Shown here piece by piece: positions 216-63,730 of a DNA stretch of 64,000 nucleotides (the stretch's first letter is position 1; each line of letters opens with the position of its first letter). The stretch lies in NCBI GenBank assembly GCA_002118135.1, contig BDIU01000256.1, positions 126,773-190,772 of the forward strand. Reading direction: 5' to 3'. The notes beneath the pieces are model-generated. The model did not search any database and had not been told where the DNA came from. It worked only from the letters and a program-made list of their open reading frames with translations. The position numbers were made by a program, and so were the translations under genes. The DNA is from Trebouxia sp. TZW2008 (Eukaryota; Chlorophyta; Trebouxiophyceae; Trebouxiales; Trebouxiaceae).

Positions 216-3200
216 CGTCAGGCTCAAGAGAAGAGGCAGGCTGAGGAAGAGAAGAAGAAGCAGGAGCAGAAGGCGAAGAAGGATGCAGAGGCAAAGGTCA
301 GCAAATCTGTATGTTGACGCATCTCAAGTTGCCCCTGCATTGTGTTTCATCGGGTTTCGACTCCCACCATAGAAAGCGCAAAAAACATTCAAAACCTGAA
401 CCCTACACCCTAATCAATTCTCTTGACCAAAAATATGGTAAATTTTTCTGGGGGGTCTGAAACCCTACTTCCTGAAATATGATGCATTATCATGTCAGGG
501 CTGAAGTTGTCCCCAACGCTTGCTGCCATGCACCTTGACAGCGTGCCAGTGAAAGACGAATCACGATCATGGTGACTGGACGTGGTGGCATCGCACAGAA
601 GGTGTATTGTAACCGCTCTGTCTAGCATAGTTCTTGGAAATGTCCCTAGCATGCATACATGCCATAATGATTGAGTACAGCTCGCATGTACAGGCTGCAG
701 CAGACAGCAAGAAAGGTCATTTCCAATCTAAGGCTAACAGCATGTGACATGTGATTCCAAAAACACTGATCACACCAAAATTTTTGGACGTAAGCATTCA
801 AGCAGTTGGAACGTAAGCCTTCATGCCGTCATCATGAATGTGGCTGGCATGTACAGGCTGCAGCTGACAGGAAGAAGAAAGAAGCTCCCAAAGCAGAGCC
901 CAAGAAGCAGCCAGAAGCCAAGGCAGAGCCCAAGAAGCAGCCGGAAGCTAAGGCAGCTCCCAAAGCAGCCCCTAAGGCAGCTCCCAAGGAAGCTCCCAAG
1001 GCTGAGCCAAAGAAGACTGAAACAAAGGCTGCAACTTCAGATCCTGAGGCGAAAAAACAAGCTGAGCGGGTATGTTCTGTTGAAGTTACAAGACATCATT
1101 GCATGGTTAGGCATAAGTTGCTGAAATTACAGCACATCATCGCAAATTTGGGCATAATCTGCCGAAGCTACAGCACATCATCACATGATTAGGCATATTC
1201 TGCTGAAGTTGCAGCACATGATTACACAATGAGGCGTAAGAAGCGCCGGCACATCATCACATCAAAAGGCTGAAAGGAGCACCAGCACATCATGTGGTGC
1301 ATGGTCAAAATGCCCTGGCGCATGATCAAAATGCCCTGCTGCAGATGCAAACACCCTGGTGCGTCATCAATATGCCCTGTTCAATATGTTGTCTGACTGA
1401 AGCCGGACTCACTGCAGCCTTTGTTGTGTGAATCAAAGGTGCTTGTTTTCTGTACATTTGTCTTGCACAGTTCATGTCTTGGCTCCTTACAAAAGACTCA
1501 AAACCACTTCTGTGTGGCTGTGCAAATTTTATTGAGTTGCGTTGCTCAGATTCTTGCTTGCTTTGTGTTTGCAGGCAGCAGCAGGAGCCAAGGAAGCTCG
1601 ACAGTGGATTTCAAAGTGGAGAGATGGCGGTGAACCCCAAGAGGGTGGACAAGCGGCCAAAAAAGTGGGTGAATGGTTTTGGCTTTCAGAGTTTGTTGTG
1701 TTTTACTGGACTGTTTCTGAGTGCGCCTTCAAACTTTCTGTTCTGTTTGTGTTCACAGGCAGCAGCAGGAGCCAAGGAGGCTCGGCAGTGGATCTCCAAC
1801 TGGAGAGACGGCAAAACACAAGGTCTGTGCTGTTTGCTGTCTCAGCTGTTTTTGTTACACCCCTGCTGTTATGCCACGCCTGCTGAGACACCTTGCATCT
1901 TGCCGTGGCTCTTGGACACAATCTGCCTCAGGCTTTCAATATGCAGTGAACACCCCACCTGGTTGGAGCATCTGGCAGCATCTGTGTTTTTCGAATATCA
2001 ATTGCTCTTGTTGTGATGCTCAGAACAAGCCAGCCTGTTGAGAAAAGACTCAAGCCACACACACTTAGCACATGTGCTGCAAGGTCATTAGCATTTCAAA
2101 CATCAGACTGTGTCAGCTCAGAAGCAGCTGTCAACGCCAAGCCGCTCCACACCTTTTCATCAATCAGCTCGTCCAATTTTGCAGAACTTTGGGAGCACAT
2201 TTGGAAGGGCACTTAATGGCATCCTGTTTGGCAACGCCTTTGACAAGCTCAAGCTACGCTTGAAACGAGAAGCGTACAATCTTGCGTGCTTACCGTTTCA
2301 GACATCGTGTGAGCTTGTCAAAGTGATTGCTAGCCGGACAGCCGGTGGCACTCGTCACTTGTAGGCAGCTGTGATATTGTTAAATCAGATGACATCGTCT
2401 TGTCTGACTTTCAACAATTGAGCATGAGACATACCCACTCGTAACGCCAAGAGAAGCCAGCCTGGCAAACAGGACTGGTGCTGCACACACTCAACACCTA
2501 ACTAGAATGTGTACTTGATCATAGAATTATCATCACTATTGATGATATTGCATTGTATTTGACAAGATGTCTGTTGGTTGCAGCGTCTGCCAAGCAGTCA
2601 TCAGGGCCTTCAAAGCAGGTGAAGCAGACAACTGCCAAGGCAGCTTCCACTGCTGAGGACATTACTCAGCAGGGAGGGCTGTTGGGCAAGGTATTCAGTG
2701 GCCTGCCCCTGCCCTGGTCAAACGGCAATGGCAAGCAACGGCAGGTACGAAAATTTCTCCTCATAATGGCTGCATTGATTACCCACAGAGGTGTCCTTAC
2801 TCAGAGGCAGATGTGCCAGCATGCGTTGGTCAACTCCTAATTGTGTCGACCTCACAATGACAAGCTGCATTTGGACGTCAGAACCTTACATGCTGCAGTG
2901 TTTGAGTCCCCCCGCCCATTTTGCTTTTGTTATATTGATCAGATAGTGCGCGGACAAGAGCCCAGATGCGGTTTCTTTGTTGCCACAAGCCTGCCTGTGC
3001 AGTTGAGTTAGGCAGTGCCTGTAAATGAAAAATGCAAATGAGCTGTTTGCACTGCATAGTCTGCTCCTCCCAAGTCTCCAGTCAGCACCTCAGGAGGCCA
3101 GCTCAGAGAAGAAGAGCGGCGGGAGCCAGACCAACGCCAACTTCATTGATTGAACCCCTTTTGCCCAACTTTCCCTTGCAGTTTTGTACACCCATGCAGT

Positions 3201-7800: not shown

Positions 7801-10147
7801 CTTCCTTGGGCGACCTGGAGGATTTGATCCCTTGACTTGACCAAACAACATGACCTTAGGCAACCTAGTGTCATCACACTGTCTCCCCGCATCTTTCAAC
7901 TTGGTAACATACAGAGGGCCAGGGGCTGCTTTGTCGCATCTGTCAAGGCAATGGTATCCCTGACTGCCCTGTTGTCTCTTTGACATCATGCTGATCATAG
8001 TCAATCAGACTCAAGACTGATTTGTGCACATCCATACTGTACCAACCACCAATACCCAATTTATTGCGCTGTCTGCTGCTGCTGTTGACATTGATGACGT
8101 ACAGCAAATACAGGACTGACCTGTGCACATACACACTGTACTGTTTGCCACCGCCTTTCAGCCTGGTCACATACAGAGGGTCAGGGGCTGCGCTGGCTTG
8201 GACACATGTCAGGGCAATAGGACCCTTGACTGCCCTGTTGTTCTTTGACATCACGCTGACCATAGTCAAATCAGACTCCAGACTGACCACAAACATACTG
8301 TACGACCTGCCGCTACCCAACTTGTTGTGCTGTCTGCTGCTGCTGTTGCAAAATGATGGTGTACAGCAAATGAAGGACTGACCTGTGCACATACACACTG
8401 TACTGTTTGCCACCGCCTTTCAGCTTGGTGACATACAGAGGGTCAGGCGCTGCTTTGGCTTGAGCCTCTGTCAGGGCAAAGGCCTCTTGCACAGAACCGC
8501 CACCCAGATCAATGGCAGCCATGGTGTCACCCCCATCTTTACCCAGAAAGCCTAACAGGTAGTTTAGGGTCAGCCAGGCAAAGGCACCCTCATCAGAACC
8601 TACAGATCATTCAGTTTTGAGTGGGAAGTCAAGTCGTAGCTTTGCTTTTGCGGCAAGAGGGCGTCTAGACTTAGGGTTTGAAGCTGATGTTTGTGGATTT
8701 CTGAACCATTTTCATGCAGTCCATCGAGGTTGCATTTTGTATACAGCTTTGCAAAATTTGGTCAACCTGACTGGTGTAATGACATGTTGAACTTGCCATG
8801 GCAAAGCATAATTGCACAAGCTGTAGCTAACAGCATAAATGCCCTGCACTTACAGGCAGAAATGTAAGGAGTTGTGCATACCGTCAAGGATGGTGACGCC
8901 TGTCTCTGCATCCAAGTCAAAGGGGCTTTTCCTGAAATAATTTCTGACAGCCGCCAAGATAGCATCTGCTTTGCCATCTGGCAAAAGCCTCAGTCCTGCT
9001 GTTGCCCCCAGCTTGATCTTTGTCTCTGCCTACACCATGCCACACTTCATCCGTAACCTGGTCTGTAAATGGATGATAATGCTAGAATGTTACGTATGTC
9101 TAGCATCAGCGCAAGGTGTGTATGACAATAGACCTGTCCCATCAGGCCAACTTGTGTTGAGTGTACAGACTTCTGACATGCAAGATTCTGCTGATTGTCT
9201 TGCACATGCCAAGACATGAAACAGTGGCGACAAAGTGGCTTCTGATTGGCACTGCATCTGGGCTTTGACGTGTGTAAACAACTTCAAGTAAAGCATGGAC
9301 ACCATGCCCACCAGTCCAAGCACCTGTGTCATGATTGGCTACATTACTCATGTTGTGTGCGCTTACCTGCAACATGCAATGCATAAGTGGGGCGTGCTTG
9401 CTAACCTCACGCATAGACCACGGCACATCTGCACAAATGCTGATCCCTCAGCAACGACTGCATGCCGCTGCTGCAGGATGTACGTTGTGCAGATGGGCTG
9501 TGGACAACACGTGAGAACAGCTACCCATGTGAAGGCGAACTGGACTGAGTGTGATCGAGTGTGAATGCTCTGTTTGCTGCATTGCCAGGCAGAATAGGAT
9601 CTCTGCATACTGCGCCAAGGCATTACAGAGCGTGTTGCAGCCTGCTGCACTACCACCCATAGGTAGTGCGTCTATTGCCACAGGATCACTACATGTTGAA
9701 TAGATGTACCTGGGCTGCTTTTGGCACGGTCTTCAGGGCAAAATCCAGCAGCGGCTGCAAAGATTCAGCGGCTGCCTGTGGATCATCAGCATATGAGCTG
9801 AGACCTGGCTTGAGGGTTTGCAGTGCATCATTTTGGAGCTCCAAGGTGCCCTTGCTTTCCAAGAAGCTGACAACATGCACCCTGCTCCCTGTGCTGCCAG
9901 CGTCAAACACCACTGCATATAGCTCTGTTGCCTTGCCTGTTGGCAAGGGATTTGCATGCTGTGCTTGCTCTATGACTTTGTCGCTGGTGACTGCCTTCGC
10001 AACATCTGATGCTGTGAGATCTGATGGGGAGGACCGTGGCATGACCACAAGTATGAAGAATATTAGCAGCACCTGTGACACAACATCAACAGTCTGCTGA
10101 TCCTGCGCATGCTGCAGCTGATGCAGTTTGCTTGGCTTGCATGGCAT
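4846..10147 (-). CDS. Apyrase (GDA1/CD39 nucleoside di/triphosphatase), 8 exons
   Basis: Exons in transcript order: 10147-9710, 9029-8882, 8599-8383, 7142-7049, 6739-6614, 6177-6090, 5554-5439, 5028-4846; all phases close, giving about 469 aa, the usual size for the family. All five apyrase conserved regions are visible: VFDAGSTGSRVHV (ACR1), GATAGLRLLP (ACR2), SDEGAFAWLTLNYLLG (ACR3), IDLGGGSVQ (ACR4) and EAAWPLGAA near the C-terminus (ACR5). A hydrophobic stretch in the first 40 residues (SQVLLIFFILVV) is a likely signal anchor, placing the catalytic domain in the endomembrane lumen or outside the cell. The family hydrolyses NTPs and NDPs to NMP plus phosphate with divalent cations; whether this copy prefers UDP/GDP (Golgi) or ATP (ecto-apyrase) cannot be read from sequence. 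Introns carry decayed copies of exons 3, 6 and 7. Confidence 0.93.
5580..5645 (-). repeat. Decayed upstream copy of apyrase exon 7 start
   Basis: The acceptor region and first codons of exon 7 (encoding EIIKDHNALT) recur 79 nt upstream in transcript order as a degenerate version (EIINEHNALT, then divergence). Confidence 0.6.
6255..6330 (-). repeat. Decayed upstream copy of apyrase exon 6
   Basis: The intact exon (6177-6090) encodes CSFAGAWGGGHAPKAFYVSS. A second version 151 nt upstream in transcript order encodes SFAGSWDGMHVLKAFYRSS, then loses the frame and the SYFWDRA part. Only the intact exon retains the conserved Cys in phase. Confidence 0.7.
7685..7860 (-). mobile_element. LINE (non-LTR retrotransposon) 3'-end relic
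   Basis: Translated on the minus strand it gives GRPRKIWTDIVSSDFQQLNK followed by GIERQ, typical of the extreme C-terminus of LINE reverse-transcriptase ORFs (GRPR..W.D.V...). The rest of the element is missing. A second, more decayed copy of the same sequence lies at 32046-32200. It sits in an apyrase intron in the same orientation as the gene. Confidence 0.6.
7890..8380 (-). repeat. Downstream copies of apyrase exon 3 end plus donor
   Basis: The end of exon 3 (APDPLYVTKLKGGGKQYSVY, donor at 8382) is repeated in part with its donor and following intron at about 8286, 8121 and 8014, and a weaker piece lies near 7900-7940. The intronic part is repeated too, so the unit spans exon end, donor and intron start. 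The best copy (8121) still encodes APDPLYVTRLKGGGKQYSVY. Confidence 0.75.
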
Positions 10148-10882
10148 AGCATCTGTGTTCTACGCACAGATGCAGCTGCTGTTGCACAAAGCTCAGTTCA
10201 AGCTTGAGCTTGAGCAGTCAACTCACCGGGACGGACACCAATGTCAATACCCCTCTGTACCTGCATGACATACATGAGAGCCTGAGATGGTCTACAAGAC
10301 CATAAACGTCTTGGCATTACCAAAGCGCCTATGTTGCCAGAAAACGAAGATGCGTCGGAACCACCGCCCCACCTGTGCAGCTGTTCGCCGATAGTCTCTT
10401 TCCGCGGCATCTTGCCGCGCCGACGCTTAGCAATACGCGGAGACGCACGCTTCGGATCCAGCAGTCGCGATAGGAGCTTTTTCCCCTGAGCACAGAGGCA
10501 ACACGACTAATAGGGGTTAAACGGGGACTCCGCGGTCAGAGCAAATCTGCTATCGGTGCGTGCAAGTGTTGACGTTGCAGTACAACAAAACGCAGTGTTC
10601 GCCAGTGAAAGTACGCCGCAGGGAGCGCATGCGCAAGCTTACTTAAGGTGATCACAGCCCTGGGAAGTCAAAGCTCTGCAGTGACTTTCTGCCGGTAGGT
10701 ACGCCGTCGATGTCAAAACTGTACGGCGTCATACAAAGTCGCGAAGCATTCAAACTTTGTGCAGTGGCGCTTTGCTTCGAGCCCTAGCTATTGACGTGCT
10801 AAACTTGCGATCGCGTGCGCGATGAGCGAGCTGTACGAAGCACAATCTCACATGTGATAGCGGAAGTCGCCTCTTATCAGGC
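10148..10882. promoter_or_regulatory. Shared upstream region of divergent genes
   Basis: This 735-bp stretch lies between the start codons of the apyrase (-) and the coiled-coil gene (+), so it must hold both 5' UTRs and promoters. It is richer in CG dinucleotides than the surrounding introns, most clearly at 10400-10620. No TATA-like element or repeat could be assigned with confidence. Confidence 0.4.
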
Positions 10883-13676: not shown

Positions 13677-16600
13677 TCACGCATCATATTCAAGGGCCAC
13701 CTTGTACACATCCTCAAATGTGTCAGCAAAGTGAACAGTGAAGCCTTTCCTGACATCATCTGCAGCGCACACATGGTCACAATGAATGTCATTTCAGGGA
13801 CACATTGAGCTTGCTCACATGCAGCTATAACACTCTATAGCCTGCACACTTGACCTGGCCTCAACAATTTGCCTGCCAGAAGCTACAAGCGTGACAGAGT
13901 GTATGACAACAGTGAATCAGCCAGGCAAAGTTGACAATCGTTCATGCATCGACACAGCGACAGATGCCATCTTGACATCATCTGCAGAACTGCTTTACTT
14001 GCATGACTCTGCAAAACTGCTACAACTGCATAGCAACATGCCTCACCTGCCAGCTCATCCCAGTCTTTCTGGTTGCCCTTGGGAAACAGCAGGGTATTCA
14101 CACCGCTGCGGCGCGCTGCTAGAGTCTTTTCTTTGACCCCTCCAATGGGCAGCACACGTCCAGTCAGCGTCACCTCACCTGCACAAGAAGCCATGACCTC
14201 TTCTTGACCTGAAACCATATTTGTCGTATAACAAGGCGTCATACATGTCACAAGAACACACAGAACAAAAACAAAAGTGCAGAGTCAGTCAGTGTCGCCT
14301 CACCTGCACAACAAGCCATGCCCTCTTGTCAACCTGCAGGCATGCTTCTTGTACGCGACGGCATCATGCACATGTCATTGCATCAGCAACGTATCAAAGT
14401 CAACATGTCCAAGCATCAGCATCGTGTCAAAGTCACAAAGTCAACCAGCACAAAAGTTGCCCTTGATGAAAGAAATCAGCTTCTAGCAGACAGGGTCAGG
14501 GCTTGCATGCACACTGTAACATGCTTAGAACTGGGTTTGGATAAACATCAATGCAGGGGCTGGGCTCGATTCTGTCACATATCATCTAACACTCATCATC
14601 CATTCTCACCTGTCATGGCCAGGTCAGGGTTGACTGGTTTGTCCAGTGCTAAGGAGAGTTTGACTGGTTTGTTTGAGGCTAAGGAGAGCAGAGCAGTGAT
14701 CATAGTGTATCCCGCTGAAGGACCACAAAAATGTTGATGTGTTATATGAAGCTAACCTTCACTACCTAGAACTCCACACACTCAAAAGAAAAAGTACTAC
14801 ACACACCAGTCAAAACACACCAGTAAAAGGTCAATGATGATTCTGCTTCCAAGGTGATGTTTGGGTGTGGCAAATGGGAGTGTAGGGGCTGGAGCTTCAT
14901 TGTGTCACTGTTCACTCTCACCTGTCGTGGCTAGATCAAGCTTGGTCAAGTGCCAAAGAGAGAAGAGCAGTGGTCATAGTGCATCCTGCTGCAGGACCAT
15001 GATCGTGTGTAGCACGCAACAGGGGAAGGCAGCGGCTCAAGTCTACTTTGTCGCCTTTGTTATTTTTTCCTTTCAATCTTTTTGTGCTTTGCTTTTCTTT
15101 GTTTCTTTTCTTCACTCTTACCTGTCATGGCTAGGTCAGATTTGACTGATTTGTCTGGAGCCACAGAAAGCAAAGCAGTGACCTTAGTGCAGCCCATTGA
15201 AGGGCTGTCTTTAGGCGTGGCAGGAAGCCTAAGGGCAGGCAGAGGAACAGCAGAAGCTGAAGCTTGCTTCGTCATTGTCTACTCTCACCTGTCATGGCTA
15301 AGTCGGGTTTGACTGGCTTGTCTAGTGCTAAGGACAGTAGAGCAGTGATCATAGTACAGCCGGCCGAAGGACCATCTTTGGGTGTTGCACCAGCCGGCAC
15401 ATGCACATGAATGGCATTGTTCTGGAAGAAATCGCTGCCAGGCTTTTTCCGCTCTAGGAACGCCCGACTGAAGGTGTGTGCAATGCTTGCGCTCTCCTTC
15501 ATGACGTCGCCAAGTTGACCTGCATTCAGAGTGAGACCTTTTAGCAACGACAAGTTTGCGTCTAGTTTGGAGGCTTGATGATGTTTTGGGTACAAGAAAT
15601 CCTGGGGGACATGGCAGAGAAAAGAACTGAAGGAGTAGTTCGATCAGCTGACCTGCAGCAATGTGAAGAAGAATGAAGCAAAGTGACAAAGGAATGACTA
15701 GTGAAGAGCAAAACAAGATGACTGAAGAGAAATTCAAGAGAGAGAAGTGAGACACATGAGATGAAGAAGAGTTTTGAACAACCAACCTGTGGTCCTGAGG
15801 CTGCCTTTGCCCTCCCCTTTCTCCACCCCTGCAGCCTCCACATATAGGCTATTACCTCCCATGGAGGTCCAAGCCAGACCCATGACTACTCCAGGGGGCG
15901 TAGACTCATATATGCGGTCGCTGGCAAAAGGAGGGGGTCCCACGTAATTCTTGAGATCCTTGGGGGTTATGACAATTTTGTCATAGCTGCCTGAGAGCGT
16001 GACAGGTGGCGGTTGCTGGGCTGCATGGGAATCTGGAGGCTGATTCTGGCTTGAGGTTGCTGGTGCATCTGTAGACAACAATGCTGTGATGACTCAACTG
16101 CATTGATGATGACGTGCAGTACTTGTCAGAGCTTTGATGTAGATGAGTGTATGATCCGTGATTATAACCAAGCCATGTTGCAATGCATGCAATGTGCATG
16201 ACCTCTGATGACGTCGTGAATCAGAAAAATTGGAGTTACCACAGTCATTCCAGCAAGAAAGAACCAGGCGCATGCAAGACTGGGCATACTGAACTGCAGT
16301 ACAGAGAGCAAAGCCTCAAAACAGTACTCATGTCACCCGGGAATGTGCACAGCAGCTGTCACGCCTGCACTTCCTATGTCTAGGGTTCACATTTGCGATC
16401 AAGACCCTTAGCGCACCCATACCTGCAATGCCAGTCTCAGGGGGCGATGGCTGAGGGGCGTCATCCCCCAGGCCCACCCCCCCATGCTCAGTCACAGGGT
16501 CCCCAGGCTCTGCTGGGGTCTGCTGGGGATTGCTTGGGGTGGGTCCTGACAGACCCCCTTTTACTAGCTTCAGAGCCACTTTTCGGTAAGTTTTCTCCAA

Positions 16601-19600
16601 AAGCTGCTTGAGGCTTCTCACTCCTGCTTCCCTGTATCAAGTGAAAAACAAGGGTGGTACAACTGTCACAGACTATCTGGTTGCACAGCATTTGTTTTCA
16701 GATTGGCTGGTAGCAAACAAGGCCAGGACATTGTGTCTGGTCTAATGATGCATGCTTGCTTGCAATCACATTGATGTAAGCCTGACAGCAACACCCTGTT
16801 GATCTCAATGCATGCTGTTGCCATCTGAGTCATTTACTCACTGTTGTGGCTCAGCCTGTGGTATCAGAATTACAAGTTTGTGGCGACCATTACAGGTGTA
16901 AAAGATGGCTCCTATTTACTACCAGCCCACTGCCTGTGCGCGCATGAAGGGCTATTGGCTGCGCCACATGCAATCTGCGGACTGCTTGATCTTGGGATCA
17001 TATACTGTAGCCTGTTGTACTGCTCTGTGAACGTTTGGTTCTGCACATGGCAGTTGAGGACAATGCACATACCTGGCATACTCTGTAATGAGGGTGTACA
17101 TGGCATCATCAGTTATGTCAATGCCGTCAGCAGGAACTCCAGACAGCTTCTGGCATTGAGGCTCCAAGTAGCGCCGTGCTATGGCAACCTTCTCGTCCGC
17201 AATGTAGCCAGAGATCCTGATCACCTGTAGCAGCAGCAGCAGCAGCAGCATCAGCAGCAATCAGACAAGTGTGCTGGCATGACCATGTTGCTGCTTCGCT
17301 CTGTCTTGCTCTGTTTTGAAAGCCTAGAAAGGTAGCATTCCCTTTGCTGATGTCAATGCCGTGAGCAGGAACTCCAGATAGCTTCTGGCGTCGAGGCTCT
17401 AAGTAGCACCATGCCATTGCAACCTTCTCATCCGCAATATAGCCAGAGGTTCTGATCACCTGTAGCAACAGCAGAACTTGGACCTGCATGCTGTGTTCGC
17501 GCAAAGTCATTGTTTCTCGCTGGTTTGTTGTGAATTTGCAGCCTATAGAAACATTTTCTAGAACCTCAGCTGTACACACAGCAAGCACATGCGCAGGAAT
17601 TGACAAACCTGAGCATCGACCCACACTTGCACCCTGACTTTTGGGTTTGCTCATTCACCTCTTGAGACCATTGGGTCCAAGCCATTTTCAGAAGCTCAGC
17701 AGCCAGTATTGATGCTGAGGATGAAAACTGTTGGTTTTTATCGGTCCTCAAGGTCAACATTGGCTGTCTGGGTGAATCCTGAAAAATGACTTAGACAGCC
17801 AGCTAAGCAAGAAACAAGCGATTGCAAGATGATTGTAACAATCCCAAGTTGTGACTGGAACTCCATTCTGGCTCTGAGGGATTCATAAGTCGTGTTGAGC
17901 ACACTTGTAATGCAATCGCTCACAAATTTCTTGCACACTTCTTTTCACACGCCCTGAGATGTACCTTACACATCCATCCTGGTCCTGAGGAGTCAAAGAG
18001 TGATGTCCAAAACAGACAAATTGCACAATTGGAGATTCAGGGGGGCATTTTCAGAGGCACAGAAAGCCTCGCAAACCCTGAGCCCTGACCCATACCTCCA
18101 TTTCATCCCTGAGAGGCCCAGGAATGGTGTCCAGCTCATTGGCTGTACACATACACTTGAAGACTGATTGCACAGAAAGCCCAAGAAACCCTAAAATGCT
18201 ACCATACAGTGCTTATGAGCACACTTGGTATGTGGAATTTCTCAATGTAAGGAGGAAGGCAAAGGGGAACAGGGCATTCTGACTGCAGTGGTACCTGTGA
18301 TGGAGAACAAGCCAACCTAAGGACCTCTCTCTGAGTTCCACGACACTGTCGACAAAGGACAGTCATTGTACCTCCATTTTGTCTCTGAGGGGTCCCAGAC
18401 TGGTGTCCAGCACGTTGGCTGCACAACACGCAAAAGTGCAGTAACACAGAAAGCCTACAAGGCCCTGATGAATGACCTATACCTGCATTCTGTCTGAGGG
18501 GTCCTGGAATGGTGTCCAGCACATTGGCTGTGCACGTGAACAGCCACCTTTGCAAATGCCCTACAAGCCCTAAGTGTTACCCATACCTCCATTCTGTCTC
18601 TGAGGGGTCCAGGAATGGTGTCCAGCACATTGGCTGTGCACATGAAAAGCACCTTGCTCAGGTCCACAGGCACGTCCAAATAATGGTCTAGGAATCCGGA
18701 ATTTTGCTCAGGGTCAAGCAATTCCAATAGGGCACTGGCTGGGTCACCCTGATACCCTAAAGAAGAAAGCCAGCATTTGCATGTTGCAGCCTGTCCAAGC
18801 AGTGTAAACATAAGCAAAGTTTGTGAGAACACTTGATCTAAAGCAATAAACTCTGAGCCTTGAATGTTGAAGTGCATCTTATGCAAGTTGATCGATCGCC
18901 ATGAATCCTGGTGAGCACCAGACAGTTGCCTGGATGCCAATTTGCTCATTGCAAGCACGCACAAGCTGAAATTGTTCAATGCGCTAGCCCGTCATGAAGG
19001 TATTAGAGCCTGCACATCTACCAAGCTTGTCAATCTGATCAATGAGCACCATGGGATTGCTGGTGCCCAAGTGCTTGCTGCATATATCCAGGCTGCACAA
19101 GTCGATCAGTCTGTTGTGTCACAAGCAAGCAAAGTTGGTTCGCAAATCAGAGAAGCTGAATTCCACGCCTCTGTCAAGCTTGTCAGTCTCATCAATGAGC
19201 ACCATGGGATTGCTGTTGCCACTGTACTTGAGGCAGATTGCCAACCTGCGCAAGTCAATCAGTCTGTTGTGTCCAGGAATTGAACCCTGTACCTTTGCCA
19301 AGCTTGTCGATCTCATCAGTCATGGTAAGGGGCCTTGGGATTGCTGGTGCCCACGTGCTTGTTGCACATTGCCATAAAGCACAAATCAGTCAGTCTGTGG
19401 TGTCACAACCAAAGGAAGTCATGTGCAAATTAAAAAAACTGAGTTTCACACCTCTGCCAAGCTTGTCAATCTCATCTATGAGCACCATAGGGTTGCTGGT
19501 GCCAGTGGACTTGAGGCACTGCACCATTTTGCCCGGCATCGCCCCCACATACGTCCTTCTATGACCCTTGATCTCAGCCACATCACTCAGCCCTCCCACA

Positions 19601-22600
19601 CTGAACCTGTGACAAGCAGACAAGTTGACACAATATGGACAGACAGCAGCTATACAGCAGCTATACAAAAGGTCCTCTTTGTCAAACACACAGCATTTGC
19701 GCTGTAGTACACCAGCAAAGCTTCATCTTATAGTCACCCTGAGTGGTCCCAAAGGGCCCAATCAAAGACAGGATCAACATGTTACACTATACTTCCGTCA
19801 AAATGAGTGCTCTTCAGTAAATGTTATTTCACACAATCTCTTTTCAATATTGCGTTTTGTGACAAACCTGTAGTACTTGCGCTCCAGAGCTCCAGCGATG
19901 CTGCGCCCCACGCTGGTTTTACCAACCCCAGGGGGCCCTACCAGGCACAAGATTTTGCCCTGAGTGCTGCCCCTCAACCGCCCCACTGCTATGAACTCTA
20001 GGATCCGGTCCTTCACGTCTTCTAGCCCATAATGATCCTCATCCAGAACCTGCATGTGACAGTTGATGCCAGTTCAGGAATGTTGCTCTGTACTTCACAA
20101 TCTGGTTCTTTCAATTGTGCTGCCCTGCTTTCTGCCCCTGAGCCGCCCCACTGCTATCAACTCTAGAATTTGGTCCTTCACGTCTTCCTAGCCCATAGTG
20201 ATCCTCATCCAGAACCTGGACATGGCAATTTGGAGCTTTTCAACTATTATACACTTCACAGTCTGACTGGCATGCCTGCACTGACCATCCCTCTGCGAGC
20301 ATCTGCTATGACTTTTGTGGAGTCCTGTCCTGAAGTACTGAACTGTGCAGTCCAGGGAAATTCTGTCATGTTTTTGGACATCTAGCCCTGTCAATTTCTT
20401 GGACAAGTATGTCTTGCTTGACAAGCAGAGCACTCAACACGCACATAGTGTCACACAGTCATCATGCCCAGATAGTCATTGCTATCACACTGACCGCCTG
20501 TGCATTCTGAACGTCTAAGGGCTCTTGCATGTAGTGTCTTGCAACACAATTGTTTGGGGGTGTGTCACTATGTCATAGACTGCCTGAACCTCATGGACAC
20601 ATAGTCATTGCCACTGTGTGGCACATGCGACCAGCCTGCTTGGCTGGCTAAAGCATGTAAAACTGCACTCTCTCTCTCCAGAGGATAGCTGTAAACCACC
20701 CCCAATGACTTGAGGAGCAATCCTGTAACACTTAGTTCATTTTGCGCAACAGGCACAGCACGCACATAGCACACACCATATGGCCAATCTCATCATTAAA
20801 GTCAGGTTGATCTGATTGCATGCTGAATGTCGAAGCGCTCTTGTGTGGAGTGTCCCCAGGGGACAGCTGCCAGCCAGTGCAGGCAATTGACAAATGTCTC
20901 ATCATGCTGAGGATTCTCACAGCGTGTATATACAATCAGAAGTGCAGAGATATCAGACCGACCTTCTGTGCACACACCTTCCCACTCTTTGACTTTTCAT
21001 ACACTAACCTTCTGTGCATGTTCAATGTCCAATCGCCTATGTGTGTAGTGTCCCCAGGGGATAGCTGTCAGTCCCTTGTTGAGACAAGTGCTAAACAGGC
21101 AAAGTATGCACACAGCACACAATCACTGTACATTCACCCGAGTCAGACCAACCTTCCATGCATGCTAAATGTCTAAGCGCTTTTGCTTGTGGTGCTGTCA
21201 GAGGATAGCTGCCAAGCACCCCAGATGACTTACACATGCTTGTTTAGAAAGAAAAAGATATGAATGAGAAAACTTTAGTATGAGAATTAAACCTGTTTAT
21301 GCAGGGAAACGAGATCTTTTTATCGGGGCACAATGAACAAAACAAGACAGAAATATTGAACCTCCTGTTCGCTTTGCTCAGCAAGCACCGCTTTGCTCAG
21401 CAAGCACAGCACGCACACAGCACACGTGTAGGGTCAAACTCATCTTCACAGTCAGGCTGACCTTCTGTGCATGCTGGATGTCTGTCCGGTCCCGTGTGTT
21501 GTGTCCCCATGGGATGACTGTCAGCCACTGCAAGCGATTGACAATTGTCTTACCTTGCTCACGAGGCAGATCATGCACACAGCATACACCTATAACCAAG
21601 ATTTCACTTGCGTCAGACCGGCCTTTTGTGCTCACAAATCACCCTCTTGCAGATAAAATAAGGGGTTACGCTTTCCAGCACATGTGCTAGGTGTGTATCA
21701 CCCTCTTGTGACCGTTGCCAGACTGACCTTCTGTGCATGCTGGATGTCTAGGCGCTCTTGCATATAGTGTCCCCAGGGGATAGCTGTCAGCCAGTCCAAG
21801 TAATTGACAAGTGTCGTACCTTGCTTGATTGGCACAGGATGCACTCAGCACGCACACATGGTCAGGTCGTTACCATTGTCAGACACCCACAATTGCCAGA
21901 CTGACCTTTTGTGCATGCTGAATGTCTAGTCGCTCTTGTGTGTAGTGTCCCCAGGGAATAGCTGTCAGCCAGTCCAAGTAATTTCTCGCGACATTAAACT
22001 CGCTGCTGGCTGACTCCAGGTTTGACAGCTTGGCCATTTCCTCATCGATCACGCGCCGTGCTTCAGCTGGAATGCGGTCCTTGTGCGGCTCGATCCTATC
22101 AGCAAATCTGCAATGACGCAATGCACCAAGTTGCTGAGTTGGTGATGCATGTCTGATACTGTGAGTATGCTTCGAAGTTTGACAGCTTGGCCGATTCCTC
22201 ATCAATCACACGCCGCACTTCTGCAGGGATGCGGTCCTTGTGGCGCTTCATCCACTCAGCAAACCTTCAGTGAAAGACGCAGGCATGACTTGAAGTTGCT
22301 GCTGACTGAGCCTGGGTATGACAGCTTAGGCATCCCTTCTTCAATCACACGCCGCACTGCAGCTGGACTGCGGGCCTTGTGCGGCTTGATCCTATCAGCA
22401 AACCTGCAAAATAGCAAATGGAAGTCTGTGTTCTAGGGTGAATTCATAAATGCAGAGTGCATGCGTTCATGGAGAATCAACCCCATGGCGCGCTTCAGCT
22501 GGAATGCGGTCCTTGTGCAGCTTTATCCTATCTGCAAATCTGCAATGGCGCAATAACGCAGAGATATGGTCTCAACAATGCTCCTGCCTCACTAGACCAA

Positions 22601-25600
22601 GCAGCTTATGACCTCAAGCAAATCCCAGCACAAGAGGATCAACAGGGTGCTGCTGTTCCTGAAAGAAAACAACAAGATATCAACAAGATAGCAACAAGAA
22701 TATCAACAAGATATCAACAAGATATCAACAAGAATATAACGTTCGTATTGTTAGCTTTTGCAGACATGTACCCCAGAGAGCACTTGCAGTTAATGAGTGC
22801 TCATTCCATGTCTCATGCGTCATTGGCACATGTGAATTTGCTCCCCCTCATGAACAAAATGTGCTCTGTCAGTCATCTGTTGGTCATGTCAAACTCCAGA
22901 GATGCACTTCAGTTGTATTTGATGAGGAAGGCAGATTGAGGCAGACACATATGCAGCTTATTTTGCACCATGGCGGTGTTGCCACTAAGCTCCTTCTTCA
23001 CGCTCTTCAGCTGCGTCAGTGTCAAGTGCATCATGCTTTGTCAGTGGCATGTCAACTGTGCAAAGTGCCATCCGCTATGTTGCATATCCACTTGATCAGA
23101 TGATGCAGTGGATGCATGGCCTACTTTTGCACCATTGCCGTTTTGTCATCCCGCTCCATTCCTAGTTCCTTCTTGATGCTCTTCAGCTGCTCCATAAGTA
23201 GGTATCGCCGCTGATCTCGGCTGATCTTCTCCTCAACGCGTTTACCAATGTCAGCTTGCAGCTTGCACAGCTCAATCTCCTTCTTCAACAGCAGCAGCAC
23301 TGCATTGGCCCTGTACCAGCATTCATCTTGAAAAGTTTGACATGCGCAGCACAGCACAGTGGTGAGCGCTGATGGCTGTGGTCCTGATTCAGCAGCAGCA
23401 AAAAAGCAGATGCCCTGCAGTAGGGTTCAAGTGCTGCGATGCAAGAGGATTTCAAGGGTTGCCAATATCAGTTGGAAGCTTACACAGCTCTATCTCCTTC
23501 TTCAACAGCAGCAGCACTGCATTGGCCCTGCACCAGCATTCATTTTGAAAAGTTTGACAAGTGCAGCACAGCACAGTGGTGAGCGATGATGGCTATTGTC
23601 CTGGTCAGCAGCAGCAAAAAGGAAGGTGCCCTGCAGTAGAATTCAAGTGCTGTGACGCAAGAGGATTTAAAGGGTTGCCAATGTCAGCCTGAAGCTTACA
23701 CAGCTCTGACTCCTTCTTCAACAGCAGCAGCACTGCGTTGGCCCTGCACCGGCAATGAGTTACTGAAAGCCTGACAATATCAACATATGCAGCTAGCGCA
23801 GCTCTATCTCCTTTTTCAGCGGCAGCAGCACTGGATGAGACCTTTGGCGGCCACTTGCTAGTTGTGTGCACAGCACAGCACAGCACAGCACAGCACAGCA
23901 CAGCACAGCACAGCACAGCGATTAGGTGTGACAGGACCATGCAGCCTGGAGGCGGACAAGGACAACAGCAGTGAGGTGTTGTCCATGTCTGACTCCAGCT
24001 TGCATGGCCCTATCTCCATCCTCAACAGCAGCAGCGTAACTTTTGTCCTGCACAGACCAGCACCACGCAGCAAAGCGATCAGGTGTGACAGGACCATGCA
24101 GCCCGGAGGCGGACAAGGACAACAGCAGTGAGGTGTTGTCCATGTCTGACTCCAGCTTGCACAGCTCTATCCTCTGCCTGAGCAGCAACAGCACTGCATT
24201 GTCTCTGCAGCAACTTTGTGCTGCAGTTGCTGGCTGTGCACTGAGAAAGCATCAACATATGCAGCAGAACACAGCACAAGGGTGACATGTTGTCAGTGTC
24301 TGCCTCTGGCTTGCGCAGCTCTATCTCCAGCTTACGTAGCTCTGTCCCCTGCTTGAGCAGCAGCAGCGCTGCGTTGGTCCAGCACCGTTTGCTGCATTTT
24401 GCGGGCTGTGTGATTTAACATGCATTGCACAGCACAATGATGAGTGGTAGTTGTCTGTGTGTCTCCTTGAAAAGCTCTGTTGTATATCTATATAGCAGCA
24501 GCAGCAGCAACAGCAGCAGCACTGTAGTCTTGCAGCAATGTTGGCTTGCTGAGCTTTGCAAGCATGTTCAGCAGGGCTGAGCTTGGGTCTTTCTGAAGAT
24601 GATCGATGTGACAACAGCGTCAGCTTCTGCCCTGAGATGTGCAGCATACTTTGCAGGTATGCTGAGCTCTGCAAGCATGCTCAGTGGATCAAACCTTGAG
24701 GGTTTTTGAGTGTTGACATTGCAGCAAGAACATCTGCTTCTGGGTTGGGATTGGAGCTGACAACTTGTCAAATATGCTCAGCTCCTCAAGCACGCTTTGC
24801 AGACCAGTCTCTTGAGCACTTGTAAGCGCCGCAGCCATGTCAACAAGCATGCACGCTCAGCAGATTCAGAGTTGCGGCAAGGTCTAACACTGTCACCGCA
24901 GCAAAGACAGCAGCACCTGCCTGGCATTGTCATCTTGCACCTGTCAGGTATGCTGAGCTCTGCCAGCACAGTTTGCAAGTTGACCTCTTGAGCGCTCGTA
25001 AGGGCCGCAGCCATGTCAGCAAGCATGCTCAGCGGATTCAACTCCAAGGCAACAATAGCAGCATTTGTTTGAAGGTTTGAATCACACACCTGTCAGGTAT
25101 GCTGAGCTCTGCAAGCACGCTTTGCAAGTCAGCTTCTTGAGCGCTTGTAAGGGCCGCAGCCATATCAGCAAGCCGACTCAAGTCTTGAAAGTCACTGCCA
25201 AACTGGAAGGAGCTTTGTAGCTGTTCCCTGTAGATGGGGTGCTGCGCCAAGAGGTCCTTCAGTGTGGATACCAGCTCCATGTATGTGGCTTTGACTATGT
25301 CGTCGCTGGAGTTGTAAGGCAGGTCTTTCAGATGCTCCACTGCAACCTTTAGAGGCCGCTTTTGCACCTGTATCAGCAGTAGCAACAGTGTTCATTGTGC
25401 TTGGACTTGTATATTGAAGTGACGGGCCAAGGTGTTGGAACCAGCTCCATGTATGTGGCTTTGACTGTGTCGTCGCTGGATTTATAGGGCAGGTCTTTCA
25501 TATGTTCTACTGCAACCTTGAGGGGCTGCTTTTGCACCTGTATCAGCAGCCATAGCATTCACTGTTGTGCTGCTTATACTTCCAGGAATTGAGCTAACAG

Positions 25601-32419: not shown

Positions 32420-32870
32420 TGAGACATGGGCTGGTGTCCGCCAAGGTGGACTACTGTGAGCAGGTTGAGCTGTGTAAGATGGTCTGGTGTGGGCTATATT
32501 TGGTGGGCTAGTGTAGGTTCTACCTGGTGGGCTAGTGTAGGCTCTACCTGTTGGGCTAGTGTGGGCGGGCGGGTCAGCGTAAGCTATATATGGCGGGCTA
32601 GTGTAGGCTATATATGGTGGGCTAGTGTGGGCCATGGTGGGCTAAAATGGGCGATATATGGTGGGCGACTGTGGGTCATGGTGGGCTGTATATGGTAGGC
32701 TATATATGGTGGGCTAGTGTGGGCCATAGTGGGCTAGTGAGGGTCATGGTGGGCTAGTGAGGGTCATGGTGGGCTAGCTAATGCGCGCTGCATACAGTGG
32801 GCTAGTGTGGGCCACGGTGAGCTACTGTGGGCAGGTGGGCTAAAGGGGCCATGTCGAGCAACTTGGTAGG
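32420..32870. repeat. GTGGGCTA-type minisatellite
   Basis: About 450 bp of irregular tandem units built on ggtgggctagtgtgggc with interspersed tatatatggt. The proline/serine/tyrosine-rich open frames through it (TSPPYIAYTSPP on the minus strand) follow from the repeat and are not taken as a gene. Confidence 0.85.
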
Positions 32871-41273: not shown

Positions 41274-44200
41274 ATGGAATTTGGCTTTGTGCCTGACAGT
41301 GTCGTCAAGGAGCTTGCAGAGACAAACAATTGGAAGGTAACAGCATAGGCCTTTGCTTTGCTGCATCAGCCTGCACCTGGCTCATATACCTTCTTGATTC
41401 AGATATTCTCATTGCTGTATCCAATATAATGGTACCTGCTTGTCAAATACTTGTGTTGCCTTGTCCAGGCCAGATCAGCTGCTGTGGACAAGCTATACAG
41501 CGCATTGCAAAAAGTGCAAGACAAAGATGTCTTGCTGCCGACCCTTTCCAAACTGCTGGAGTTTCTGTCTGCTCTTGGGAATGATGCCAACTTCAAGATA
41601 TCACTGGCCACTATGCAAATCCTGGCAGACTTGGCACTCAAGCTTGGATCAGATATCCGACCATATTTGGGGTACGGCACTCAGTTTCCTACAATGCCTG
41701 TACTGTGCATGTACCATGGCTATATGCTGCATTGTCTTTACTGCTGTGCCTTTTGCTTGCCTCTTGCATCTCATACAAGTAGTCAACAGCCTCAAATGTT
41801 GCAGCTACCCGCCTGCCTGCATTGAGACCGGGCGCTGCTGACTGCACACTGCCTTGCCAGCGCTGCTTCTCTTCTGCGCCTCACTTCTGCAAGCAGAGGC
41901 TAACGTTGCAGAGACATCATGCCCGCTGTGATCAGCAAGCTAGGGGACGTCAAAGTGGCAGTGAGGCAGGCCAACAACAAGCTGCTGGCCGTGCTGATGG
42001 ACGACTTGCAGCCTGGCACCGTTCTGGAAGGCCTGTCTATGGCCCTTGTGCACAGCAACTGGAAAGCCAGAGGGACTGCAGTCGACATTCACTCAGCAGC
42101 TCCATTCTTGCAGGGACATCATGCCTGCTGTGATCAGCAAGCTAGGGGACAACAAGGTGGCAGTGAGGCAGGCCAACAACAAGCTGCTGGCCGTGCTGAT
42201 GGACGTCTTGCAGCCTGGCGCCATTCTGGAAGGCCTGTCTATGGCCCTTGTGCACAGCAACTGGAAAGTTAGAGAGGCCGCAGTCAATGTGTTCACTCAG
42301 GTGCTCCCATCTTACATACACATCTGGTTGTGGCATGCCTGTACCTTCTGTTGCCCTTGTACACAGCAAATGAAAAGGTCAGAGAGGCTGCAGCCAATGT
42401 GTTCACTCAGGTGCTCGCATATTTCACAGGATTCGTCTGGCATGCCTATGTCAAGTCTATAAGCTGTTTTTGCAAGCACTGTAGATGCACCTATCTTTGC
42501 ATACTGTGCAATCACATGTCATCAGCGTGCTTTTTGAACCTGCTTTTGCTTGTGCCACAGATTGATGATGTACAACATCCTGGCAGTTTTGGCCTGCCAT
42601 CGCAGTTGCTGTGCCACCTGAGCCATCTTTCATAGTCAGTTGATCCTTGACAATGCTTGAGAACGAGATGTATCATCAGCCCAAAGTGGATAACAAAGCA
42701 TGACCATTTGCAGTCCCAATAGCACACCTATGTCGCCTCACGTCAGCACAGTATAGCTCACGTCTTGAGCGCAGTTACGCTTCTTCACACTGCAGCTTGC
42801 TAAGGCATTAAGGCTGTTGCTTTTGAGCGTCAGCATGAGGCATCACCACACAACCATTCTCAGTGTGTGTACTATATGTGCAGGCTCTGCTAGCGCACAC
42901 TCAGGCGCAGTTTGTGTACAGCCGCATTGTGCGGATGCTGGTGTGTGCACTGAGTGACGGGCACCACAGAGTGGCAGCCTATGAATCAGCTCTCATTATA
43001 TTCAGCATGCATGCAGGCTCTGCTTGCACACACTTGGGCGCACTTTGAGTACAGCCGAATCGTGCGGATGCTGGTGTGTGCACTGAGTGACGAGCACCAC
43101 AGAGTGTCAGCAGCAGCCATTGAGGCCTTGGCAGTTGTGCACCACCGCATAGGAGATGAGATCCAGGGTCTGTTGGTGGAGTCTGGGGCATCTGTGCCGG
43201 CAAGACTGATGTTGGCGGGGCGTTTTGCCAGCAGGGATTTGCCAGCCTTGAAGGCAGACGGTGCTATAGACAATGAGGTGAGGGCATTCTTGCATGCATG
43301 CTGAAAGCAGATGTTGCTGTAGGGGGGAAGAGCAGCTGTTGAATGCATGTCTGCTGTGTGATAAGCTCAAGGCAAAGCTTAGGCCTGGTGCTTCTGTGCC
43401 TGCAAGACTGATGTTAGTTGGGCAATTTGCCAGCAGGAGTTTGCCAGCTTTGAAAGCAGATGGTGGTGTAGAGCATGAGGCGAGGCATTTTCTGCATGCA
43501 TGTTGAAAGCAGATATTGCTGGGAAGCACCCAAGAGCGGGATGATAGGGCTAGGGGTGGCAGATTGGCGGCTGACATGCTGCTCAAATCTATCAGACAGC
43601 TGCAAGCCACAGGACCCTTTATGACAGGATGAAGGATGTCATGAACTCTTTGCTCAACAGTTCTGTGGCAGCACCGTTTTGGCCAACCATCATCAAAACC
43701 CTAAGCTTGGCAGTTGTAGCCTTCTTCAGCATTGTACGCTTTGCCAGATGGCTTTGGCATGATTGCCATCCAGCGCTTAAGTGCTTCGCAACTCAGCAGC
43801 TAGAACATCTTCTGACTGCAAGTGTTGACTATTGAAGGAGCCTGCCACCAGGAGCATGACCGTTCTGTATATCTTTGCATACAACAGGGGTATGTTTGTA
43901 GGTTTTGGCAGGGCCTGAGATGAGCCTGAAGGGCACACAAGTCTCGCCAAACCAGAAACACCCCTCCCTGATATCATCTCCCGCCAAAACCGCCCTGCCA
44001 GGCGTTCCCGTCACCTCTTCCCGGCTAATGCGCAACAGCAGTAGCCTACGAGCCAAGGGAGGGGATTCAGCTTTCCCAGGGTTAGCAACTTTGGTGGGAG
44101 GGTCCCCCGACATCAGCCCAGGGGGTTTGGCTGTCATTAAGGTATACTGTCATGCAAACTGCATGACTCACACGAGAAACTAAACCTCAGACATAGCGTG

Positions 44201-61016: not shown

Positions 61017-63730
61017 ATGCCTGTGCTGAGCAAAGGTTGCCGTTTCCGCGACATTGGCAGTACCACCAGCCGAAGCTGGACCGTCCTCCGCAAGATCGGT
61101 GAGGGACAGTCTGCAGAAGTGTTCTCCGTCAAATGCGATGAGGAGCCCTCGGTTCAGGTATGCTTACACGGTGATCAGGTACGAATGTACACAGCCAACC
61201 CAAACTGACTCGCTGCTTGTGCTTTCAGCGTGCTGTCAAGATCGAACGCGAACCCGGAGTCCGCACCCTCAAAGCCGAGCTGAAGGTGAACGAGCGCTGC
61301 TTTCACAGTCTGCTGGAGCAATGCTATAGCTGGAGTTGATCATCAGAAGTTCTGTATCCTCAAAACAGTTTTTGCTCTGTCAGGTTCTCAAGCAGCTTCA
61401 AAATAGTCAACATGCTTGTCAACTCATTGACTATGGCATTTATCAAGGCCATGAGTACATTATCATGGAGCTGCTGGGATGTAATGCTGTTGAGTTGCGC
61501 AAATCTCAAGCCCCGCAGGGTAGATGGGGCACACACACCGTCAAGCAACTAGGTGAGGCTTGGCAAGGCTTGCTGGCACGTCATTCAGTGTGAACGCAAC
61601 TTTTGCAAACACATAGACGCATTCCCCAAACTTGAGTGCATGACATGTCTGCTTGTACATGTTGACACATGCATTACAGCTTTTCCCAGGGTGTATGCAT
61701 GATATGTCTAACACACACTGATGCCACGCGCTGGCTGCAGGTCTGCTGATGCTGGCAGGATTGCAAGAGATGCATGAAGTTGGTCTGATCCACCGAGATG
61801 TGAAACCAGCCAACTTTGGTGTCAGTCCAGCAGCATATACAATGAGCGCAGACAGGGACTTTCAAGGTGAGCACCTGCATCCTCCAGCAAGATTTGCGCC
61901 TTGAACAATCCCCTGCTCTCGAGTGCAGATTAGTAAACTGAAGCATTGTTTAGACTGCACTTGATTGTAGTGCACTTCTTGGACTTGAATGAGGAGCCAT
62001 ACTGCAGACAGCTAAACATGCTGGTGTAATAGCATGCCTACGTGCTGCACAGCATTTGCCAAAAGCAAACTTTCACCAAGTCACCTCCACAAATCTGCTT
62101 AGATTGCCAAGCTGCAAGGCTGGGCTCTCACTTTTACGCACCCTGCGACAATCACTGGATGTTGCTTGTCACCATGCTGCATGCATGCTGTTCCAGATAG
62201 AAGACAGCCAGATTAGGTATGCACTCATGTTTGCATATGTCAGGTTTTGAAAACCATCACCAAATTAGTCCTTGCTGCAGTCGACATGATTTGTGTCTGC
62301 AGCAAGGAGCTTGAAAGTCTTCTGTCATTTTGTGAATGCTAACAAAGTACTGCAGCCTTCCAGAATGCAAAGCTCATTGCTGCAGGCAATCTCAAGGTGA
62401 TTGACTTTGGTTTATCCAAGAGGTACAAAGACGACCTAGGCAGGGTGATTCCCAGGAAGGAGGGCAGGGCTGGCTTTAGGGGCAGCACTGCTTATGCCTC
62501 TGTCTATGCCCATGAGGAGCTGGAACAAGGTGATGATGCCAGCAATTATACTCAGAAAATACCATACTTCATCTCTGACCATTTTTGGGTTGTGTATGCT
62601 TGAGAGTGCTGATATTCGGGGCAGTACTGCTTATGCCTCTGTCTATGCCCAGGAGGAGCTGGAGCAAGGTGATCATCCTGACAACTTCTATCATGTCAGA
62701 GACTGTGTAGAACCGGCTGTCCTTGGAATCCTTGTACCTTGCCTTGAGAGTAGATACTTGTTACGGCCACTGCAATAGAGACCAATCAGTCTGTCCTCTA
62801 CTGGCAACTGGACAAAAATAAGGCAGAGCAGAGAGCGGCAGGCCAAGCAGGCATCTGAAAAACAAGCTCATGGACCTTGACATGTGTGATGTTCCCTTCT
62901 ACAGGCAGGCGAGATGACTTTTGGAGCTGGCTGTATGTGTTGGTGAAAATGTTGGATGATGGCTTTTGCTCGCAACTGTCAAAGACAAGGCAGACAGGCA
63001 GGCCAAACATGTCAGCAGGCACCTCAACAGCAATCTCATGAACCCTGACATGCATGCTGTCCTCATTCACAGGCAGGCGAGATGACCTCTGGAGCTGGCT
63101 GTATGTGATGGTTGAGATGTTAGATGGGGGTCTGTGCTGGCGGCTGGGCAAGGCAGGCAGGCTGAAGATGCAAGCAGGCACCTCAATAGCAAGCTCATGG
63201 ACCCTGACACACAGGCTGCCGCATTGTGCAGACAGACGAGATGACCTTTGGAGCTGGGTACACGTGTTGTTGAGATGCTGGACACAGCAAAGCTTGAGCA
63301 GCAAGCTTCAGATCATTTTCTGCAGACGCCAGCACTGGTCTTCCTGTTCTCTTTGACATATGCTGTCATTGTGTGCAGGCAGACGAGATGACCTCTGGAG
63401 CTGGCTGTATGTGTTAGTTGAGATGTTAGATGGTGGTTTGTGCTGGCGGCTGGGCAAAGACAAAGCAAGCAGGCAGGCTGAAGACGCCAGCAGGCATCTC
63501 AATGGCAAGCCTATGGACCCTGACAAGCAGAGGAAGAAGGAGTTTGCGCTCAAGAAGAAGCGTGCTGCGCTGACTAATCCAGACCTCCTAACAGCTACGG
63601 TTGTTGTCCCAGGTACAGCCCCTTGCTGCTGTCATGACTCGGCACTGCTCAACTGATTTGACGATGCTATCCTGTTTCATTGGCAGCTGTTGAATTGTTA
63701 CCTGTGAAGTCAGAGAACTTGCAGGCATAA
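61017..63730 (+). CDS. Casein kinase 1-like (CK1/TTBK group) protein kinase, C-lobe shortened
   Basis: Exons: 61017-61157, 61229-61285, 61384-61552, 61741-61866, 62386-62529, 63379-63612, 63687-63730 (stop); all phases close (about 304 aa). Kinase landmarks: glycine loop KIGEGQSAEVFSV, catalytic Lys in RAVKIER, ELKVLKQL (alpha C Glu), hinge IMELLG, catalytic loop LIHRDVKPANFG, VIDFGLSKRY (metal-binding Asp), substrate loop RGSTAYASVYAHEELEQ, and RRDDLWSWLYVLVEMLDGG. The HRDVKPANF and DFGLSKRY forms are typical of CK1/tau-tubulin kinases (Ser/Thr kinases). After this block the usual C-lobe helices are not seen; instead there is a Lys-rich helix (KQRKKEFALKKKRAALTNPD) and a short tail. The last exon may instead continue to others beyond the window, so the ending is uncertain. 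Partial copies of two exons crowd the intron 62530-63378. Confidence 0.85.
62615..62672 (+). repeat. Downstream copy of kinase exon 62386 end plus donor
   Basis: RGSTAYASVYAQEELEQG with donor gtgatc, 139 nt after the intact RGSTAYASVYAHEELEQG|gtgatg. Phase and frame are preserved. Confidence 0.88.
62898..63300 (+). repeat. Three upstream copies of kinase exon 63379 start
   Basis: The gatgac tag of the exon start (RRDDLWSWLYVLVEMLDGGL) lies at 62913, 63081, 63240 and 63387 (intact), steps of 168, 159 and 147 nt. The first three read RRDDFWSWLYVLVKMLDDGF, RRDDLWSWLYVMVEMLDGGL and RRDDLWSWVHVLLR, each after an acceptor-like acag or gcag. All lose the frame further on. Confidence 0.9.

Follow-up and report, generated by a model that had tools for sequence, protein, structure and literature searches.

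Genes and local repeats in the window

The window, which is the whole 64-kb stretch of DNA analysed here, was taken from an assembly of 68.5 Mb in 527 contigs. It contains a Lon protease gene, a CDC50 gene and further genes or gene candidates, with local repeats at or beside them. The following features were located.

680..1812, plus strand: short repeats (34 to 127 bp, shifts 82-184) in the putative Lys-rich gene
7893..8489, minus strand: tandem array (262 bp) adjoining the apyrase gene, the exon assignment of the array being only putative
13680..25373, minus strand: Lon protease gene, 12 exons used and 11 GT-AG introns, from tblastn of P0001 and splice placement
14609..15288, minus strand: Lon donor-type array, real junction 15288, copies at 15121, 14921, 14639 and 14609
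17224..17459, minus strand: Lon acceptor-type single copy, real junction 17224, copy at 17459
18095..18586, minus strand: Lon donor-type array, real junction 18586, copies at 18482, 18371 and 18095
19015..19451, minus strand: Lon donor-type array, real junction 19451, copies at 19168 and 19015
20049..20215, minus strand: Lon acceptor-type single copy, real junction 20049, copy at 20215
20494..21905, minus strand: Lon donor-type array, real junction 21905, copies at 21727, 21461, 21152, 21008, 20810 and 20494
22107..22539, minus strand: Lon acceptor-type array, real junction 22107, copies at 22264, 22403 and 22539
23310..24379, minus strand: Lon acceptor-type array, real junction 23310, copies at 23527, 23743, 23841, 24047, 24204 and 24379
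24649..25089, minus strand: Lon donor-type array, real junction 25089, copies at 24940, 24764 and 24649
27048-26653, minus strand: further N-terminal Lon match, from the P0001 alignment
30196..31018, plus strand: CDC50 gene array region, exon matched at 30706-30873
41906..42426, plus strand: TOG/HEAT-repeat gene, 217-bp repeat at shift 202 with 88% identity and a further partial copy
62801..63529, minus strand: tandem array (168 bp) in the putative 'kinase'

The exons of Lon were fixed by tblastn of the intronless protein P0001 of a relative (879 aa, on a 3052-base contig that is probably a transcript) onto the window, and the homology together with the 11 placed GT-AG introns confirmed the identity previously proposed for them. 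P0001 headed the Lon matches; next came a protein recorded as Corchorus capsularis (56% identity), then Coccomyxa (82-83%, covering 63% of the query), and also Myrmecia and entries labelled Astpho2 and Botrbrau1, which we take to be Asterochloris and Botryococcus, respectively. The proposed CDC50 exon was likewise supported by homology and by PF03381, with matches including those to Myrmecia bisecta (60%, full query), a fragment (91% over 53%) and Trebouxia sp. C0004 (79% over 65%). The matches suggest a trebouxiophyte green alga, perhaps one close to Trebouxia. Copies of its start lie upstream, matched at 30223 and 30391 (array 30196-30593, period ∼170), and a copy of its end lies downstream at 30965-31018. 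For the other genes named in the preliminary description the repeats were present, but the gene identities were weaker. The TOG frame 42001-42459 barely passed the HEAT cut-off, with two TOG models below theirs; apyrase was recognised in the neighbouring exon only (PF01150 in 9692-10159), and the array frame 7893-8489 gave no Pfam match; there was none either in the frames tested for the 'kinase' (62801-63307) and the Lys-rich gene (797-1189), whose exon assignments are thus unconfirmed.

Local direct repeats were spread along the entire window and covered 16.1% of it. TRF returned 30 rows of tandem repeats, and self-comparison by blastn gave 103 pairs, of which 96 were direct and 84 were direct at shifts of ≤700. 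Only three distant pairs reached ≥50 bits in the 64-kb window; no dispersed transposon or introner family was seen within it, and such a source was provisionally set aside. Introners (PMC9860276) reportedly likewise affect many introns across a genome; the present copies, in contrast, are related to their own exon. The three strongest far-apart pairs (window 7651-7846, 32022-32200 and also 2015-2430; 72-88% identity, 24-30 kb apart) are perhaps a transposon remnant. Two further elements were noted in the window: a low-complexity minisatellite at 32480-32853 (units of ∼20-24 and 88 bp), which differs from the exon-derived arrays, and a 293-aa open frame at 48815-49696 on the minus strand with a YADD motif, presumably of the kind found in reverse transcriptases of non-LTR retrotransposons.

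The repeats were not confined to the window. When 28 loci were surveyed together with the window (305.7 kb in all), the local pairs obtained at a cut-off of 45 bits and shifts of ≤1500 numbered 309 direct and 18 inverted; one dinucleotide shuffle per sequence gave 0 direct and 1 inverted, and a chance origin was therefore discarded. The direct pairs fell into 140 arrays with a median span of 284.5 bp; 76 of the 309 were head-to-tail and 233 were spaced, the shift exceeding the homology length. Local direct repeats were also present in 17 of 20 further 10-kb stretches (≥50 bits, shift ≤700), covering 5.6-43% of a stretch, and no local repeat at ≥50 bits was seen in the remaining three (L012, L014 and L017). 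These stretches, which are unannotated, were round positions on 20 contigs from the kinase match list and are not strictly random. Taken with the shuffles, the survey bears out a recurring local duplication process. The minimum shift per array was most often 140-180 bp, dropped sharply above ∼180 and was ≤178 in 115 of the 140 arrays. A nucleosome-like unit length was considered, but the claim was dropped because the lower limit of 75 bp on the shifts is probably a BLAST limit close to the main diagonal, and because TRF unit lengths were broad (75-175, with many short units).

Polarity and state of the copies

The orientation of the copies was analysed in Lon and in a second set of eight loci with PF00118 matches (CCT and relatives). 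Phase, splice score and position in the profile guided the joining of exons, which gave 49 introns with donors mostly AG/GT and acceptors mostly TGCAG/G (slash, splice site); after exclusion of two doubtful introns of CCT_C144, 47 introns with 94 junctions were analysed.

It had been proposed that copies upstream of an exon repeat its start and copies downstream repeat its end. This was the case in 41 of 41 exon-intron pairs (30 in Lon, 11 in the CCT loci), two Lon pairs at offsets -177 and -347 with the partner in unannotated sequence having been excluded from the count. Exon-end copies thus follow the donor and exon-start copies precede the acceptor, within existing introns. The junction itself was included in 35 pairs, and the remaining six ended ≤15 bp from it; residual intron-side homology (z ≥2.0) was detected in 21 of 36 junction pairs, and breakpoints inside the exon were common to the copies in several families. 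A strict scan for exon edge plus splice site, with the threshold set from introns of other genes, detected a copy for 24 of the 94 junctions. Of the copies detected, 60 lay in the intron of the junction itself (44.4 kb), 4 in the second intron flanking the exon (33.1 kb; own-intron excess P = 1e-10) and 21 in the gene's remaining introns (255.8 kb; own-intron excess P = 8e-33). A recount at a slightly different threshold gave 61, 5 and 23, respectively; the 23 exceeded the threshold by ≤2.0 and the 5 by ≤5.6, and the own-intron copies had a median margin of 16.4, with 44 of 61 at ≥6. The polarity is forced if an exon is kept intact through tandem duplication, because whichever copy remains attached to the body of the exon is, by definition, the live one, and the polarity is therefore no evidence of aiming.

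The polarity and locality bear directly on local templated insertion, in which a polymerase jumps and copies a nearby exon piece into the intron with no tandem duplication. The excess of spaced pairs (233/309) is what such insertion could leave. However, a free insertion should place exon-end copies upstream and exon-start copies downstream as well, and these are nearly absent (4 versus 60); nor does it need every pair to reach within 15 bp of a junction, as all 41 do, and inverted copies are few. Free templated insertion was dropped on the polarity in both counts, and we regard templated insertion as very unlikely. Tandem duplication accounts for pairs that are direct, local and made of contiguous units, as the 309 direct pairs against 18 inverted and the 76 in head-to-tail configuration are.

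Lon is the extreme rather than the typical gene, since 13 of its 22 junctions had a copy in the strict scan, compared with 11 of 72 in the CCT loci and none in three of these loci. The Lon introns carrying junction copies (1, 2, 3, 5, 6 and 10) are 695-1856 bp long, and those without junction families (4, 7, 8, 9 and 11) are 261-441 bp. In the acceptor array at 23310..24379, the identity of the exon part fell with distance from the junction (.90,.88,.86,.80,.78 and.77). Together with the local direct repeats throughout the window and the polarity in Lon and the CCT loci, these data confirm the earlier account of head-to-tail, decaying copies near exon-intron junctions. The link with intron growth that it proposed was also supported: repeat-bearing introns had a median length of 709.5 bp (n = 16) versus 287 bp for the others (n = 31; P = 1.6e-6), although the comparison is partly circular because long introns offer more room.

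A second clear example, beyond the window, of degraded donor and acceptor copies was observed at L018 8564-9383, an 820-bp intron of an M3-peptidase gene flanked by PF01432 positions 196-237 and 240-283. It holds one exon-end copy of 94% identity and four or five weaker matches (the weak ones assessed without a null), followed by two copies of the start of the next exon. The spacer beside the 94% copy resembles a degraded copy, and the intron might be an old array that was partly refreshed by gene conversion.

Substitution in the copies was near-neutral. Mismatches between parent and copy at the three codon positions were.116/.121/.248 in gapped and.204/.188/.315 in ungapped alignments, and those between copies were.209/.179/.237 and.300/.275/.336, respectively, a pattern that fits a parent under constraint and copies almost free of it. 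The decoy splice sites suggested earlier were indeed present: the GT had survived in 17 of the 21 copied donors and the AG in 15 of the 16 copied acceptors, a retention somewhat biased because the counted pairs must reach near the junction. In 15 of 37 cases the copied splice site scored as high as the real one or higher, with means of 6.0 for copies and 8.8 for real sites. None of the 37 copies could be used as an in-frame, stop-free alternative donor or acceptor, and a role as functional alternative splice sites was accordingly discarded. The copies look like near-neutral decoys.

Some features could nevertheless be read as a sign that the copies are functional, as alternative exons, alternative splice sites or regulatory poison exons under selection. 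GT or AG was retained in 32 of 37 copies, and stops were fewer than simulated (7 in 815 codons versus 17.1 ± 4.1 in a uniform simulation). Gaps were few in the exon-derived parts compared with the intron side (1 per 209 versus 8 per 90 mismatches between parent and copy, 2 per 287 versus 3 per 25 between copies), and five highly similar pairs, a small set picked post hoc, showed a third-position excess (mismatches 12/8/35 by codon position). We still consider this reading quite improbable: besides the lack of in-frame alternative sites, copy-copy mismatches were nearly even across codon positions, the Lon exons were collinear with the protein of the relative without a duplicated segment, and by eye the inner edge of the copies had no consistent second splice site.

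Placement, edges and age of the duplications

The preliminary description held that the process is centred on splice junctions, and asked whether tandem units are enriched there over intron interiors and intergenic DNA. No significant excess was obtained in the nine loci. When the repeat map was rotated against the exon map within each locus, 16 of 94 junctions were fully covered versus 12.0 ± 2.9 in rotated maps (P = 0.125). Exon coverage was 1366 bp compared with 1430 ± 295 bp, and intron coverage was 6710 bp compared with 4795 ± 644 bp, an excess that arises in part because the unannotated flanks are poor in repeats. Among independent families, 17 involved a junction and 3 were intron-interior. 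By random placement of the observed unit lengths on repeat-free introns (median 287 bp) and exons (median 188.5 bp), 68% of the tolerated duplications were predicted to cross a junction, compared with 17 of 20 observed (P = 0.075). Junction copies are probably easier to detect, which would shrink this gap further. The rotation and family tests have low power, resting on nine loci of which Lon was picked because of the finding itself.

These data also weigh on the alternative of a process directed at exon-intron junctions, which would duplicate them specifically and might be coupled to transcription, R-loops or splicing. Across all loci, donor-like motifs are more frequent at the edges of spaced repeats (2.64 per kb versus 0.48 in the background), as are acceptor-like motifs (6.7 versus 3.4), and most families involve a junction, as such a process would predict. 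The rotation without significant enrichment and the closeness of 17:3 to the geometric expectation, even before the detectability of junction copies is allowed for, speak against it, as do the three intron-internal families and exon-internal breakpoints that vary from family to family. A junction-centred process is not needed to explain the observation, and we judge it unlikely.

The edges of the copies also speak in its favour. An exon-only edge (≥28 exon and ≤16 intron bases), ending a few bases past the junction, was found in 23 of 41 exon-intron pairs, and Lon copies at +178, -432 and +215 had ∼90% exon identity without intron-side homology. Such edges arise in part because the parent exon is frozen, whereas on the intron side both partners accumulate changes. 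When tandem duplication followed by neutral decay was simulated with 0.13 substitutions per lineage, exon-only edges appeared in 1%, 6% and 24% of the pairs for indel ratios of 0.05, 0.15 and 0.3, respectively; only with 0.2 substitutions combined with an indel ratio of 0.3 (0.60) was the observed fraction matched, and the codon positions suggest 0.12-0.13 substitutions, below the value needed. Simulated decay at matching divergence did not yield the sharp edges.

The most similar pairs also departed from simple neutral decay. When each array was represented by its best pair, 13 pairs showed ≥88% identity over ≥95 bp, and 10 of these were spaced with a sharp edge, although under tandem duplication the homology of the most similar pairs should approach the shift; simulation at 0.05 substitutions per lineage (mean identity 87-91%) gave only 1-10% spaced pairs. 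The spaced, sharp-edged pairs therefore lower the claim of plain tandem duplication alone. Because the most similar pairs were spaced, against the simulation, gene conversion was added to the explanation and is likely to have acted besides tandem duplication. For the sharp edges, few gaps and few stops together, either gene conversion or constraint on the copies would have to be added.

Young duplicates were scarce. The identities of the best pairs were distributed as 2 (65-70%), 25 (70-75%), 37 (75-80%), 31 (80-85%), 32 (85-90%) and 13 (90-95%), and none of the 140 best pairs in the 305.7 kb reached ≥95%. Among all 309 pairs, only two short ones reached 96% (55 bp in L018 and 28 bp in the window), and perfect short-unit pairs of 49 bp in L030 and 26 bp in L023 were also seen. 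A steady process should leave more young pairs, so that duplication at a constant rate up to the present is unlikely; the wave may have ended, or the assembly may have collapsed the longer units among the young copies. A wholly artefactual origin of the repeats, by haplotype mis-joins or false repeats, would likewise draw on the coexistence of these perfect short pairs with an empty class at ≥95%, since young longer copies were perhaps collapsed. Graded identities, mostly of 70-94%, in 17 of 20 stretches are unexpected from the joining of near-identical haplotypes, and an artefact seems to us extremely improbable. As to the sequence itself, 292 kb of that surveyed was without any N.

Proposed origin and relation to known systems

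We consider it probable that a past wave of short tandem duplication, unaimed at splice sites and tolerated where a unit crossed one junction, lengthened the introns. Units mostly of 75-180 bp would have been duplicated in tandem over much of the genome, at a time when introns were ∼290 bp long. A unit lying wholly within an exon, or holding a whole exon, would disturb the mRNA and presumably be lost by selection; one across exactly one junction, or internal to an intron, would be tolerated. With units this long compared with the introns, a junction would be crossed by most of the duplications that are tolerated. The live junction would remain with the copy that is continuous with the remainder of the exon, and the other copy would become a dead, decaying decoy, and repeated events would push older copies deeper into the lengthening intron. 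The exon-derived part would be recognisable longest, because the parent exon is held constant. Now and then the live exon end may have overwritten old copies by gene conversion, giving the most similar, sharp-edged pairs.

In the literature surveyed (mostly titles and abstract openings, with few subscription journals), no account of introns filled with copies of their own junctions was found. Several known systems are similar in part. Internal gene or exon duplication, like the present arrays, gives tandem copies of gene segments with splice sites; whole exons are kept, or alternative introns are produced from tandem arrays. Here, in contrast, partial exons were copied, and the in-frame joining expected of alternative or mutually exclusive exons was seen for none of the 37 copies. 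Patch-mediated repair in plants, reportedly treated by Vaughn and Bennetzen in 2014, is said to give short tandem duplications from break repair. Such duplications are also treated in PMC8355091 (CST/Pol alpha-primase, mammals), with human insertions of <100 bp. They share the head-to-tail duplication of short local stretches, but here most units are 75-180 bp, there are several copies per intron, and fresh copies are nearly lacking, no pair of long units being young enough for its breakpoints to be read.

The proposed mechanism resembles intron gain by tandem genomic duplication, in which, as described in PMC3443670, a duplicated stretch with a splice site gives a second site and the duplicate becomes intronic; PMC4974935 reportedly concerns the same process. 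In the present case, however, introns were lengthened, not created: the duplicated unit straddles a junction that was already there, and its copies come to lie within an intron already present. The signature of such a gain, an intron start resembling the downstream exon start and an intron end resembling the upstream exon end, was not found.

A bolder view, which we find doubtful, would make the introns largely graveyards of their own junctions. A duplication burst stopping a few bases from the splice site, perhaps tied to transcription or splicing, would be joined by gene conversion in which the live exon end is written onto dead copies, keeping decoys almost as strong as the real sites (15 of 37 at least equal), and the spliceosome would then have to choose by position and not by sequence.

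The unaimed tandem duplication favoured here would be a concrete way for short introns to grow longer with no need of transposons. The decoy exon pieces look coding, so that gene prediction in this genome would be misled by them. Introns with up to six copies of a junction, most of them with an intact GT or AG, also offer a natural experiment on splice-site choice.
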